In this document: piece by piece, positions 3,074 through 48,047 of the stretch
Numbering within the stretch: the stretch's first letter is position 1
Layout of the letters: every line of letters begins with the position of its first letter
NCBI GenBank assembly: GCA_025458865.1
Contig: JALORP010000004.1
Span: 1-64,000, forward strand
From: Steroidobacteraceae bacterium
GTDB lineage: Bacteria > Pseudomonadota > Gammaproteobacteria > Steroidobacterales > Steroidobacteraceae
Direction of reading: 5' to 3'
DNA: 64,000 bases
Notes under the pieces: generated by a model
What the model was told of the DNA's origin: nothing
Database searches by the model: none
The model's input: only the letters and a program-made list of their open reading frames with translations
Program-made: the position numbers and the translations under genes

Positions 3074-3124
3074 CAGTACGGCGAGGGCCCGGACCGGCCG
3101 TCGCCCACCGCGACACGGCGCCTT

Positions 3125-3300
3125 CGACAGGCCGGTCTCCGGGCTCTCGGCGGGCCTTGCGGGCCTTCGCGTCGCCTTCCCGCCGGCGTGTGCCGGCAGT
3201 GGCTGCAGCTGCTGCGTGACGCGAATTCAGCCGATTACCGTTGCGGGGGCAGCGCCGGAATCGCGATCGCTCGCTCACCGGCTTCCCGTTTAACCCGGGC
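3125..3300 (-). promoter_or_regulatory. cobalamin riboswitch upstream of btuB
   Basis: Read on the minus strand, the order of conserved B12-aptamer elements is complete. GGGAAGCCGGTG comes near the 5' end (about 3294), then the B12 box CCCGCAACGGTAA at about 3235-3247. GCCACTG follows, then a variable stem and CGGGAAGGCGA. The closing element GAGCCCGGAGACCGGCC is near 3130-3146. When adenosylcobalamin binds, such RNAs repress expression of uptake genes. It sits about 115 nt before btuB, in the leader shared with the adenosyltransferase. Confidence 0.95.
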
Positions 3301-3449
3301 GGACCCGGGTCACCTGTCGGCGTGCACTCTAGGTACGGTACCCCCTGCGGTCAAGCCCGGGTTGACGCAGGAGTCGGCGCGCCGCAGGCTGCGGCCGCTG
3401 CCGGGCCTGACCCGGCAGGTTGTCACGGGCTCCGAGGTTGAAGCAGACC

Positions 3450-41460: not shown

Positions 41461-41705
<245 letters not shown>

Positions 41706-44354: not shown

Positions 44355-44458
44355 CCAGCGACTCCAGGCTTGCGCCTTGGGGTTTCCCAGGGTTGGACGG
44401 CGAGGGGACGAGCCCCGCATTATACGCAAGCCGGGCCCTGCGGCGCGCGTGTACCAGG

Positions 44459-45100
44459 ATGGCTGCCTATCCCAACGTCCATTTCCTCAAGAGTGCGCAC
44501 GAGGCCTCCCAGTTCTGCGAGGACTTCGGCGCCGAGGTGGCCTTCGCCGGCCGCTCGAACAGCGGGAAGTCCAGCGCGATCAATGTGATGGTCCAGCGCC
44601 GCGATCTGGCAAGGACCAGCCGGACGCCGGGCCGCACCCAGCTCGTCAATTTCTTCGAGCTGGGCCCCGGCGAGCGCCTCGTGGACCTGCCGGGCTACGG
44701 CTACGCCCAGGTGCCTCCCCAGATGCGGGAGCACTGGCGACGCCTCATGGATGCCTATTTCGGGGCGCGCAGTTCGCTCGCCGGGCTTTTCATCGTCATG
44801 GACGCCCGCCGCCCGCTCGCCGAGACGGACTGGCGAATGATCGAGCTGGCCCGTTCCCGGGGCTGTCCGGTGCACGTGCTGCTGTCCAAGGCCGACAAGC
44901 TGGGCGGAAACGATGCGCGCAGCACCCTGCAGCGCGCCCGGGCGGAGCTGGGCGAGGCCGCGGGCGTGCAATTGTTCTCGGCCTTGAACAAGAATGGGGT
45001 GGACGAGGCCCGCGCGGTGCTGGGCCGGATGCTGGCCCGACAGGCCGTGGTACCGGACGGCGCGGCTTCCTCCGCGCGGCCCTGGCCGGCGCGGACCTGA
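44459..45100 (+). CDS. engB: ribosome-biogenesis GTPase EngB (YsxC/YihA)
   Basis: 213 residues. GTPase motifs: G1 GRSNSGKS (31-38), G2 around RTSRTPGRTQ, G3 DLPGYGYA, G4 SKADKL and G5 SALNK. EngB is an essential assembly factor for the 50S subunit. The start at 44459 follows a weak AGG; homology begins immediately after it. It is convergent to polA with an sRNA gene between, the same arrangement as in E. coli and Pseudomonas. Confidence 0.97.
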   Translation: MAAYPNVHFLKSAHEASQFCEDFGAEVAFAGRSNSGKSSAINVMVQRRDLARTSRTPGRTQLVNFFELGPGERLVDLPGYGYAQVPPQMREHWRRLMDAYFGARSSLAGLFIVMDARRPLAETDWRMIELARSRGCPVHVLLSKADKLGGNDARSTLQRARAELGEAAGVQLFSALNKNGVDEARAVLGRMLARQAVVPDGAASSARPWPART

Positions 45101-45116
45101 GGCCGGAATCCGGACG

Positions 45117-45152
45117 AAAAAAAGTCCCGAGGGTCTTTGTGACCCCCGGGAC
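45117..45152 (-). terminator. intrinsic terminator of the sRNA
   Basis: On the minus strand GTCCCGGGGGTC, loop ACAAA, GACCCTCGGGAC, followed by TTTTTTT (plus-strand A-run 45117-45123). The stem is 12 bp with one mismatch. It would also end polA transcripts that read through. Confidence 0.93.
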
Positions 45153-45227
45153 GACCAACCCGGCTTGGGGATGCTGTCCGGGTATTACCCGCTCAGGGAG
45201 GGTAGCGGGGAGCTTCTTGCGAAGCTC
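45117..45227 (-). ncRNA. ErsA/Spot42-locus small RNA with C-rich loops
   Basis: A gene of about 111 nt between engB and polA on the polA strand, the site of Spot 42 in enterics and ErsA in Pseudomonas. In order it shows: hairpin GAGCTTC-GCAA-GAAGCTC (45227-45210); stem CCCGCT/AGCGGG with a C-rich loop ACCCTCCCTG (45209-45188); stem ACCCGG/CCGGGT with loop ACAGCATCCCCAAG (45183-45158); and a terminator hairpin ending in seven T's. Unpaired CCCC/CUCCC loops are the hallmark of sRNAs that pair with G-rich ribosome-binding sites (sX13, ErsA). The predicted start matches the promoter at 45234-45261. Confidence 0.85.
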
Positions 45228-45233
45228 AACGGA

Positions 45234-45261
45234 TTAGAGGGACGGCCCCTGCGAAAGTTCC
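45234..45261 (-). promoter_or_regulatory. sigmaE/AlgU-type promoter of the sRNA
   Basis: Minus strand: GGAACTT (45261-45255), exactly 16 bp, then TCTAA (45238-45234). This matches the extracytoplasmic sigma consensus GAACTT-N16/17-TCtgA. The predicted start falls 6-7 bases on, at the first base of the first hairpin (45227). ErsA of Pseudomonas aeruginosa is likewise AlgU-dependent (established knowledge). Confidence 0.8.
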
Positions 45262-45299: not shown

Positions 45300-48047
45300 C
45301 TAATGCGCTTCGTCCCAGTTCGGGCCGGCGCCGGTGTCCACCTTCAGGGGCACCCTCAGGTCGGCTGCCCCGGCCATGAGGCCGACCAGCTTCGCGCGCA
45401 CCGCCGGAAGCGCGTCAGCCTCGACCTCGAGCACCAGCTCGTCGTGCACCTGCATCACGAGACGCGCAGGCGCGCGTTCCCGCTCGAGCCATGCGTCCAC
45501 GGCGATCATGGCGCGCTTGATGATGTCCGCGGCGGTGCCCTGCATGGGCGCGTTGATCGCGCTGCGCTCGGCGTACTGCTGCTGCTGCCTGTTCCGTGAG
45601 CGGATGTCGGGCAGGTAGAGGCGGCGGCCGAAGACGGTCTCCACGTAGCCGAGTTCGCGCGCCCGCTCGCGGGTCCCGTCCATGTAGCGCTTCACGCCGG
45701 GGTAGCGCTCGAAGTAGCGGTCCACGTATTGCTGGGCGGCGCCGCGCTCGATGCCGAGCTGGCGGGCGAGGCCGAAGGCCGACATGCCGTAGATCAGGCC
45801 GAAGTTGATCGCCTTCGCCGCACGGCGCTGCTCGGCGGTCACCTGAGTGAGCGGAATGCCGAGCACCTCGGCCGCGGTGGCCTGGTGGATGTCGCGGTCG
45901 GCGGCGAATGCGGCGAGCAGGCTCTCGTCGCCCGACAGGTGCGCCATGATCCGGAGCTCGATCTGCGAGTAGTCGGCCGCGAGCAGCAGCTGGCCTTCCG
46001 GCGCGACGAAGGCGCGGCGGATGCGCCGGCCCTCGGGCGTGCGGATGGGAATGTTCTGCAGGTTGGGGTCGCTGGAGGACAGGCGGCCCGTCACCGCCAC
46101 GGCCTGGTGGTAGGACGTGTGCACTCGGCCCGTATCCGCGTCGATCTGCTCGGGCAGGCGGTCGATATAGGTGGACCGGAGTTTCGCGAGGCCGCGGTAC
46201 TCCAGGATCAGCCTTGGCAGCGGGTACTCGTCCGCGAGTTCCTCCAGCACGTCCTCGGCCGTGGAGGGCTGGCCGGTGGGCGTGCGCCTCTGCACGGGAA
46301 TGCCGAGCTTGCCGAACAGGATCTCCTGCAGCTGCTTGGGGGAGTCGACGTTGAAGGGCTGGCCCGCGGCGGCGTGGATCTCGCCCTCGAGCTCCACCAG
46401 GCGCTTCGAGATCTCCCTGCCCTGCGCGGCGAGCACCGCCCGGTCCACCAGCACGCCGTGCCGCTCCATTCGCAGCAGCACCGGCACGAGCGGCTGCTCG
46501 ATCTCCTCGTAGAGCCTGCGCAGCGCCGGCTCCGCCTCGAGCTGCGGCCACAGCGCCCGGTGCAGCTGCAGCGTGATGTCGGCGTCCTCGGCCGCGTATT
46601 CGGTGGCCCGGTCCACCGGCACCTGGTCGAAGGGAATCTGCTTCGCGCCCTTTCCCGCGACGTCCTCGTAGCGGATGGTGTCGATGCCGAGGTAGCGCTT
46701 CGCGCAGGAATCCATGTCGTGGCGCGTCGCCGTCGAGTTCAGCACGTAGGACTCGAGCATGGAGTCGTACCGCAGGCCGGCGAGCGCGATGCCGTGGCGT
46801 GCCAGGACGTGCGCGTCGTACTTGAGGTGGTGGCCGACCTTGGCGCGCGACTCGTCCTCGAGCCAGGGCTTCAGGCGCGCGAGCGTGGCGTCGCGGTCGA
46901 GCTGGTCCGGCGCGCCGGCGTACCGGTGCGCGAGGGGTACGTAACCTGCGTGGCCCGGCTCGACGCAGAACGACACGCCGATGATCTCGGCCTGCATGTA
47001 GTCGAGGCTCGTGGTCTCGGTATCGAAGGCGGCGAGCTCGGCCGGCTGCAGTGCGGCCAGCCAGCGCTCGAGCGCGGCCTCGTCGGCGACCGTCTCGTAA
47101 TGGCGCGGCGGTGACGGCGCCGCCTGCGGGGGAACCGCGCCGGGGGCCCCGGCGCCCGTCGAGGTCGCCTGCGTCACGGAATCGGCGTCCGGCGCCTCGC
47201 CCAGCTGGCGCAGCAGCGAGGACAATTCGAGGCGCGTGTACAGCGTGCGCAGCCGATCGAGGTCGGGCTCCGCGGCCGTCAGCGCGTCGGGCGACGCGTC
47301 GAGGTCGAGGTCGCGGCGGATGGTCGCGAGCTTGCGCGAGAGTTCCAGCGTCCCGAGGTTCTCGCGCAGGCTCTCGCCCACCTTGCCGGGCACCTCGGCC
47401 GCGTGGGCGACGATCTCGTCGAGCGAGCCGTACTGGTTGAGCCACCTGGCGGCGGTCTTCGGGCCGACCTTGGGCACGCCGGGGATGTTGTCGGATGCGT
47501 CGCCGACGAGCGCGAGGTAGTCGACGATCTGCTCCGGCGTCACCTCGAACTTCGCCTTCACGCCGTCGCGGTCGAGCCGGGTGTTGCTCATGGTGTTGAC
47601 GAGCGTGATGCGCGGGTCCACCAACTGGGCCATGTCCTTGTCGCCGGTCGAGATCAGGACCCTCATGCCGCTGTCCGCGGCGCGCGTGGCGAGCGTGCCG
47701 ATCACGTCGTCGGCCTCGACCCCCGCGAGCCGGATGAGCGGCAGGCCCATGGCCTGCACGGCCTCCAGCAGCGGCTCCACCTGTGCGCGCAGGTCGTCGG
47801 GCATGGGCGGACGGTGCGCCTTGTACTCCTCGAACAGCTCGTCGCGGAACGTGCGGCCCGGGGCGTCGAAGACCACGGCCACGCAGTCCGGCGACTCCTC
47901 CTTGATCAGCTTGTGCAGCATGTTGAGCACGCCAAGCACGGCGCCGGTCGGCTCGCCGCGGGAAGTGGTCAGCGGTGGCAGCGCGTGGAAGGCGCGGTAG
48001 AGGTAGGAGGAGCCATCGACGAGGCAGAGCTTGCGGGGCGCGGTCAT
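45300..48047 (-). CDS. polA: DNA polymerase I
   Basis: 915 residues with all three domains. The 5'-nuclease (1-about 290) has VDGSSYLYRAF, GVEADDVIGTLA and VGDASDNIPGVPKVGPKTA. The 3'-5' exonuclease keeps its metal residues (D342 and E344 in FDTETTSLDY, later YAAEDADITLQL), so it should proofread. The polymerase domain has DYSQIELRIMAHLSGD, RRAAKAINFGLIYGMSAFGLA and QVHDELVLEV. It repairs DNA and removes Okazaki primers. It begins by an ATGA overlap with the lptM gene, and its 3' side carries the sRNA gene. Confidence 0.98.
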   Translation of the reverse strand: MTAPRKLCLVDGSSYLYRAFHALPPLTTSRGEPTGAVLGVLNMLHKLIKEESPDCVAVVFDAPGRTFRDELFEEYKAHRPPMPDDLRAQVEPLLEAVQAMGLPLIRLAGVEADDVIGTLATRAADSGMRVLISTGDKDMAQLVDPRITLVNTMSNTRLDRDGVKAKFEVTPEQIVDYLALVGDASDNIPGVPKVGPKTAARWLNQYGSLDEIVAHAAEVPGKVGESLRENLGTLELSRKLATIRRDLDLDASPDALTAAEPDLDRLRTLYTRLELSSLLRQLGEAPDADSVTQATSTGAGAPGAVPPQAAPSPPRHYETVADEAALERWLAALQPAELAAFDTETTSLDYMQAEIIGVSFCVEPGHAGYVPLAHRYAGAPDQLDRDATLARLKPWLEDESRAKVGHHLKYDAHVLARHGIALAGLRYDSMLESYVLNSTATRHDMDSCAKRYLGIDTIRYEDVAGKGAKQIPFDQVPVDRATEYAAEDADITLQLHRALWPQLEAEPALRRLYEEIEQPLVPVLLRMERHGVLVDRAVLAAQGREISKRLVELEGEIHAAAGQPFNVDSPKQLQEILFGKLGIPVQRRTPTGQPSTAEDVLEELADEYPLPRLILEYRGLAKLRSTYIDRLPEQIDADTGRVHTSYHQAVAVTGRLSSSDPNLQNIPIRTPEGRRIRRAFVAPEGQLLLAADYSQIELRIMAHLSGDESLLAAFAADRDIHQATAAEVLGIPLTQVTAEQRRAAKAINFGLIYGMSAFGLARQLGIERGAAQQYVDRYFERYPGVKRYMDGTRERARELGYVETVFGRRLYLPDIRSRNRQQQQYAERSAINAPMQGTAADIIKRAMIAVDAWLERERAPARLVMQVHDELVLEVEADALPAVRAKLVGLMAGAADLRVPLKVDTGAGPNWDEAH

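Follow-up and report, generated by a model that had tools for sequence, protein, structure and literature searches.

The window, as we call the whole 64,000-nucleotide stretch of the Steroidobacteraceae genome analysed here, very probably carries a small RNA gene between polA and engB, whose transcription is deduced from its promoter, fold and terminator. The reading that we favour, and consider probable, is that of a stand-alone trans-acting sRNA of the sigma-E regulon, orthologous to the anti-hemB RNA of Burkholderia and acting via an anti-Shine-Dalgarno-like loop. A sequence-only reading of the locus had proposed an envelope-stress sRNA gene of about 111 nt, and the parts that it named, namely a sigma-E/AlgU-type promoter, a start exactly at the first hairpin, two C-rich loops, one of them with CCCC, and a strong terminator, were all recovered. 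Table 1 lists these features and the neighbouring genes. The polA gene lies upstream on the same strand, some 72 nt separating its stop codon from the predicted start of the sRNA, and the convergent engB stops about 17 nt short of the 3' end of the sRNA. The sRNA terminator may also end polA transcription. Elsewhere in the window, a cobalamin riboswitch (3113-3332, minus strand, 92.6 bits) and a tRNA gene (41461-41534, plus strand) were found.

Table 1. Features of the sRNA locus and its flanking genes (window coordinates)
Feature	Position	Strand	Basis or remark
sRNA gene, about 111-112 nt	45117..45228	minus	promoter spacing, fold, terminator, covariance-model match
-35 element GGAACTT	45255..45261	minus	sequence; sigma-E-type promoter
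-10 element TCTAA	45234..45238	minus	sequence; 16-nt spacer from -35
Predicted transcription start	45227/45228	minus	base of first hairpin
Stem-loop 1 (stem of 7 bp with a short loop; contiguous with stem-loop 2)	45210..45227	minus	fold
Stem-loop 2 (stem CCCGCT/AGCGGG)	45188..45209	minus	fold; covarying pairs
C-rich loop ACCCUCCCUG of stem-loop 2, presumed seed	45194..45203	minus	CUCCCU conservation
Stem-loop 3	45158..45183	minus	fold; second C-rich loop CAUCCCCA at 45173-45166
Rho-independent terminator	45117..45152	minus	12-bp stem 45152-45141/45135-45124, then U7 at 45123-45117
polA (DNA polymerase I)	45300..48047	minus	ORF; Pfam DNA_pol_A and exonuclease domains
engB/yihA GTPase	44393..45100	plus	ORF; Pfam MMR_HSR1

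The predicted fold of the window RNA comprises four hairpins with a free energy of -54.9 kcal/mol, as compared with -36.6 +/- 3.5 kcal/mol for dinucleotide shuffles (z = -5.2; none of 200 as strong). Both structure and promoter are conserved across the order. A covariance model, termed R1, was built from a 15-sequence seed of equal loop length, genomic position being no part of the model, and it matches the window copy at 45234-45117 with 105.1 bits. Among 65 order-wide RNAs recruited by R1, 20 of the 21 modelled pairs show compensatory two-sided changes, including all six of stem-loop 2 and nine of ten in the terminator, and 96.9% of the cells are paired. None of 500 shuffles reaches the observed values, and sliding the pair partners abolishes the covariation signal. 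Since this alignment was fitted to R1 it is biased toward the structure, but fitting does not explain the range of pair types. A second set of 92 sequences gives the same picture; it was partly picked by a core pattern, and the order-wide set is therefore the preferred basis. The five modelled pairs of stem-loop 1 covary in both sets.

The most constant part of stem-loop 2 is not a stem. Its loop CUCCCU is unchanged in 64 of the 65 orthologues, though unpaired, and two C residues of the stem-loop 3 loop are kept in 62. The hexamer is complementary to AGGGAG, and the CCUCC of the loop resembles the tail of 16S rRNA that finds ribosome-binding sites. A seed that pairs in trans would be expected to look like this, unpaired and invariant while the stem that carries it covaries. 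This pattern also bears on whether the RNA encodes a small protein, as E. coli Spot 42 does at the same locus, where it is annotated as dual-function (SpfP). Conservation tracks base pairing rather than codons, and neither the window copy nor 42 of 92 family members contain any ATG; an encoded peptide was rejected on the latter ground, and we regard it as extremely improbable.

With respect to known families, the Rfam model of anti-hemB (RF02837) matches the window copy in cmscan with 47.0 bits (E = 3.8e-10), 2.5 bits below the gathering cut-off of 49.5. An orthologue from the same bacterial family scores 56.6 bits, above that cut-off (L220). Anti-hemB, described in B. cenocepacia as Bc7 or ncS04, shares with the window sRNA the first two hairpins, the loop CUCCCUGAGCGGG, the kind of terminator and the convergent neighbour engB, 3' of which both are located. 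The window RNA indeed contains the hairpin CCCGCU-N2-5-CUCCCUG-AGCGGG beside the first hairpin and the terminator. By contrast, the upstream neighbour polA and the sigma-E promoter set the window locus apart, such a promoter being present in only 1 of 19 Burkholderia, Cupriavidus and Pandoraea loci. On sequence and structure, the window sRNA is thus an orthologue of RF02837 anti-hemB, without being a formal Rfam member.

The suggestion that the sequence might be lineage-specific did not survive this comparison, as the sRNA is a borderline RF02837 match and belongs to a class-wide family. In a sample of 274 genomes from across the class, RF02837 has matches (E <= 1e-3) in 124, 13 of them above the cut-off, and at least 120 genome stretches from GTDB species contain the core CCCGCT-N3-5-CTCCCTGAGCGGG; hosts among the matches listed include Burkholderia, Cupriavidus, Variovorax, Azoarcus, Nitrosospira, Gallionellaceae, Vogesella, Ectothiorhodospira and Steroidobacteraceae. 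Within the order, R1 finds the sRNA in 149 of 196 genomes, nearly always as a single copy; counted on good genomes, the figure is 118 of 145, covering 50 of 61 genera. In genomes lacking an RF02837 match, 11 of 20 engB flanks nevertheless contain an R1 match (E < 1e-3), mostly less than 200 nt from engB. The top-scoring named gammaproteobacterial relatives under R1 are Steroidobacteraceae MAGs (L067, L079). A phylum-wide R1 search was positive in 7 of 200 genomes, a count that says little on reach outside the class, as the sample is apparently rich in large-genome groups such as Pseudomonads, whose ErsA-type copies R1 misses. Taken on these model and pattern matches, the family spans Beta- and Gammaproteobacteria, having so far been known mainly from Burkholderia.

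Gene order is also largely kept. The order polA-sRNA-engB is found in 59 of 68 inspected loci; in eight others engB is present, and the remaining one is truncated at the end of its contig. Where engB is recognisable among the matches listed, it follows the sRNA on the other strand, with a single exception (L099). In Betaproteobacteria, polA was not found near the sRNA, which there adjoins engB. Several side observations concern copy number and divergence. Two tandem copies, each with its own hairpins, were seen in six loci (L026, L029, L039, L101, L117 and L261), and four in another (L195 of G364:C33, locus positions 1500-2258). Weak R1 matches were obtained outside the class but within the phylum (L212 in G622, 31.6 bits; L214 in G597, 28.5 bits), reflecting either a wider reach or chance. 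Finally, diverged copies behind engB have CUUCCUACCCUGAGUAAG where the others have the CUCCCUGAG hairpin (L176, 144-261; L181, 1340-1467), and this lineage with an altered loop could show whether the targets changed too.

The promoter noted at the start, GGAACTT-N16-TCTAA, is unique in its genome and conserved in the order. The pattern GAACTT-N15-17-TCTRA occurs once in 3,094,930 bases, exactly at the sRNA promoter, and its reversed control does not occur in the same bases. Of 68 orthologous loci from the order, 66 have GAAC in the -35 position, and GAAC[TC]-N16-18-TCNN[AT] is found in 55 of the 68 upstream regions, against 0.6 in shuffled upstream sequences. When the 66 orthologues are aligned on GAAC, the successive -10 columns hold T (47), C (53), a mixture of T, C and A, A (38) and A (58). 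The genome also encodes the corresponding regulatory system, with an RpoE 63% identical to that of E. coli followed by RseA (RseA_N) and RseB (MucB/RseB) proteins, identified by their Pfam domains. A similar motif, GAACTT-N16-TCAGA, lies upstream of rpoE, which fits the expected rpoE autoregulation. The sRNA promoter is thus very probably real and of the sigma-E type.

The same promoter allows its history to be followed across lineages. GAAC[TC] with TC 15-18 nt further on is found in 13 of 14 gammaproteobacterial or unclassified loci and in 36 of 49 loci from other Betaproteobacteria, whereas 1 of 19 Burkholderia-Cupriavidus-Pandoraea loci and 2 of 33 Comamonadaceae-type loci have it, which is the level of shuffled sequences. 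In Burkholderia and Comamonadaceae loci (L052-L171), sigma-70-like boxes, recognised by eye, stand in its place. Judged by these motif counts, both groups have lost the sigma-E promoter. Such a loss in Burkholderia agrees with the behaviour of ncS04 of B. cenocepacia, which was unchanged in every condition tested (PMC5688073). From this distribution, we infer that sigma-E control is the older state of the family.

These data also weigh on the view that no separate gene with its own promoter exists here, the element being nothing more than the 3' UTR of polA with its terminator, or else a terminator that polA and engB share. The element does follow polA closely in the same orientation, its 3' end is a terminator, and transcripts reading through from polA would include it. 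Such a tail would account neither for the sigma-E promoter standing between polA and the RNA, with its -35 element kept in nearly every locus of the order, nor for stem-loops 1 and 2 being kept in Betaproteobacteria without a nearby polA and in the promoter-swapped lineages. A terminator has, in addition, no need of an invariant unpaired loop. We consider a mere polA tail very unlikely, and it was rejected on promoter conservation.

Three sRNAs linked to polA can be compared with the window sRNA, two of which, Spot 42 and ErsA, had been put forward as its counterparts. The positional part of that placement holds for both. Spot 42 of E. coli (spf, RF00021) has the same place and orientation, between polA and engB, but it is devoid of the CUCCCU hairpin; it is controlled by cAMP-CRP, not by sigma-E. 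RF00021 has no match on the window, and R1 scores 9.3 bits on E. coli spf, over the terminator only. The likeness is therefore positional, and homology with Spot 42 was rejected.

ErsA (Pseudomon-1, RF01719) comes closer in its setting, as it is polA-linked and has a terminator, C-rich stretches and a sigma-E-type promoter; in a Pseudomonad it was found behind polA with a GAACTT-type promoter, and the window locus likewise carries a promoter of the sigma-E/AlgU type. ErsA acts in the envelope-stress response (PMC7565897). It nonetheless differs from the window sRNA in being devoid of a stem-loop 2 with CUCCCU, and R1 scores 20.4 bits on it. RF01719 gave no match on the window at E values up to 10. 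A distant link appears through the four-copy tandem of G364 (L195), which is matched by the anti-hemB, sX13 (48.3 bits) and ErsA (37.1 bits) models.

The third relative, sX13 (RF02232) of the Xanthomonadaceae, is polA-linked with three C-rich loops that differ from those of the window sRNA. Among the searches that the sequence-only reading had proposed against Spot 42, ErsA and sX13, the sX13 model alone returned a signal on the window, a weak full-length match of 23.1 bits under a cut-off of 50. Conversely, R1 matches two sX13 loci at full length with 20-21 bits. Over 252 genomes, the sX13 model gave five matches with E <= 1e-4 besides two genomes above the cut-off, and four of the five fall on anti-hemB- or R1-type loci. 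One genome (G331) is intermediate, with the order polA-sRNA-engB and scores of 49.6 (R1), 36.9 (sX13) and 26.5 bits (anti-hemB). Common descent of the window sRNA family with sX13 is thus likely; with ErsA, whose likeness is weaker, it is possible, and C-rich hairpins could also arise by convergence. Sub-threshold matches of the alphaproteobacterial RNAs ar14 and Atu_C7 on sX13 and anti-hemB-type loci (L207, L195, L198) hint at an alphaproteobacterial link. It may be that anti-hemB, sX13, ErsA and the RNAs found here share a single ancestor, a sigma-E-controlled sRNA lying between polA and engB in Beta- and Gammaproteobacteria. The RNA would then have stayed beside engB in Betaproteobacteria and beside polA in Xanthomonads, with the promoter swapped in Burkholderia and Comamonadaceae; we regard this scenario as evenly poised.

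The differing neighbourhoods are informative with regard to a local role as well. Antisense action or transcription interference on engB or polA could be imagined for an RNA convergent with engB at such a short distance from its stop codon, the more so as the engB neighbourhood is kept across two classes. However, the window sRNA does not overlap the engB reading frame, sX13 is found behind polA in Xanthomonadaceae with engB not adjacent (two genomes checked), and the betaproteobacterial RNA is found at engB without polA. A local role would also leave unexplained an invariant loop complementary to ribosome-binding sites, and we hold it to be very improbable.

For the favoured trans-acting sRNA, a mechanism can be proposed from its sequence and from its relatives. 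Envelope stress would free RpoE from RseA, and RpoE would transcribe the sRNA, whose U-tail would probably be bound by Hfq. Two loops, the anti-Shine-Dalgarno-like one in stem-loop 2 and the one with CCCC in stem-loop 3, would pair with ribosome-binding sites containing AGGGAG or GGGG, block ribosome loading and thus lower the translation of a set of mRNAs, so that the sRNA would provide the repression within a stress response that otherwise activates genes. Transcription has been shown for the Burkholderia orthologue, its 3' end was confirmed by RACE (PMC5688073), and ncS04/Bc7 binds Hfq (PMC5688073, PMC6321483). sX13, which works without Hfq in Xanthomonas, has C-rich loops, and the mRNAs that it represses carry G-rich motifs close to their start codon (PMC3771888). 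ErsA depends on sigma-22 (PMC7565897) and pairs with the ribosome-binding site of algC, which it thereby represses (PMC6321483). Control of G-rich leaders by C-rich loops, as first suggested for this locus, is made plausible by the invariant loop and by likeness to sX13 (PMC3771888).

The complement of the loop, searched for as the pattern CAGGGAGG-N2-11-ATG, has 28 sites in the genome, about half of them at plausible gene starts, against some 20 expected by chance in a rough estimate from base composition. Candidate sites precede, among others, genes for CcmH, NuoH, adenylate kinase, an AhpC/TSA-type peroxiredoxin, shikimate dehydrogenase, GspH and an ADP-ribosylglycohydrolase. The 28 sites display no clear functional theme and include no outer-membrane porin. 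A heme or respiration flavour can be perceived among the candidates (CcmH, NuoH, Flavodoxin_5), to be read against the roughly 20 chance sites. Instead of mRNAs, the C-rich repeats might bind and sequester a regulator protein. The strong structure of the RNA and its several C-rich loops would suit such a role, and the conservation of the loop exceeds the need of an ordinary seed with changing targets. On the other hand, the window RNA has no GGA loops, which define CsrA/RsmA sponges, and its nearest characterised relatives, sX13 and ErsA, act by base pairing. We consider protein sequestration unlikely.

The name anti-hemB derives from a predicted target, not from a tested function (PMC6321483), and what has been filed under that name as a Burkholderia family is a widespread, probably sigma-E-controlled regulator, which has been studied best in a lineage that no longer has sigma-E control. 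The Rfam entry understates the breadth and age of the family and the probability that it is under stress control, and the locus informs on a large, mostly unstudied part of the Beta- and Gammaproteobacteria. Its long-fixed anti-ribosome-binding-site loop offers a testable case of an sRNA that keeps one seed while its targets change. If the common ancestry is true, this would be among the oldest traceable trans-acting sRNA genes, with an almost frozen anti-ribosome-binding-site loop.
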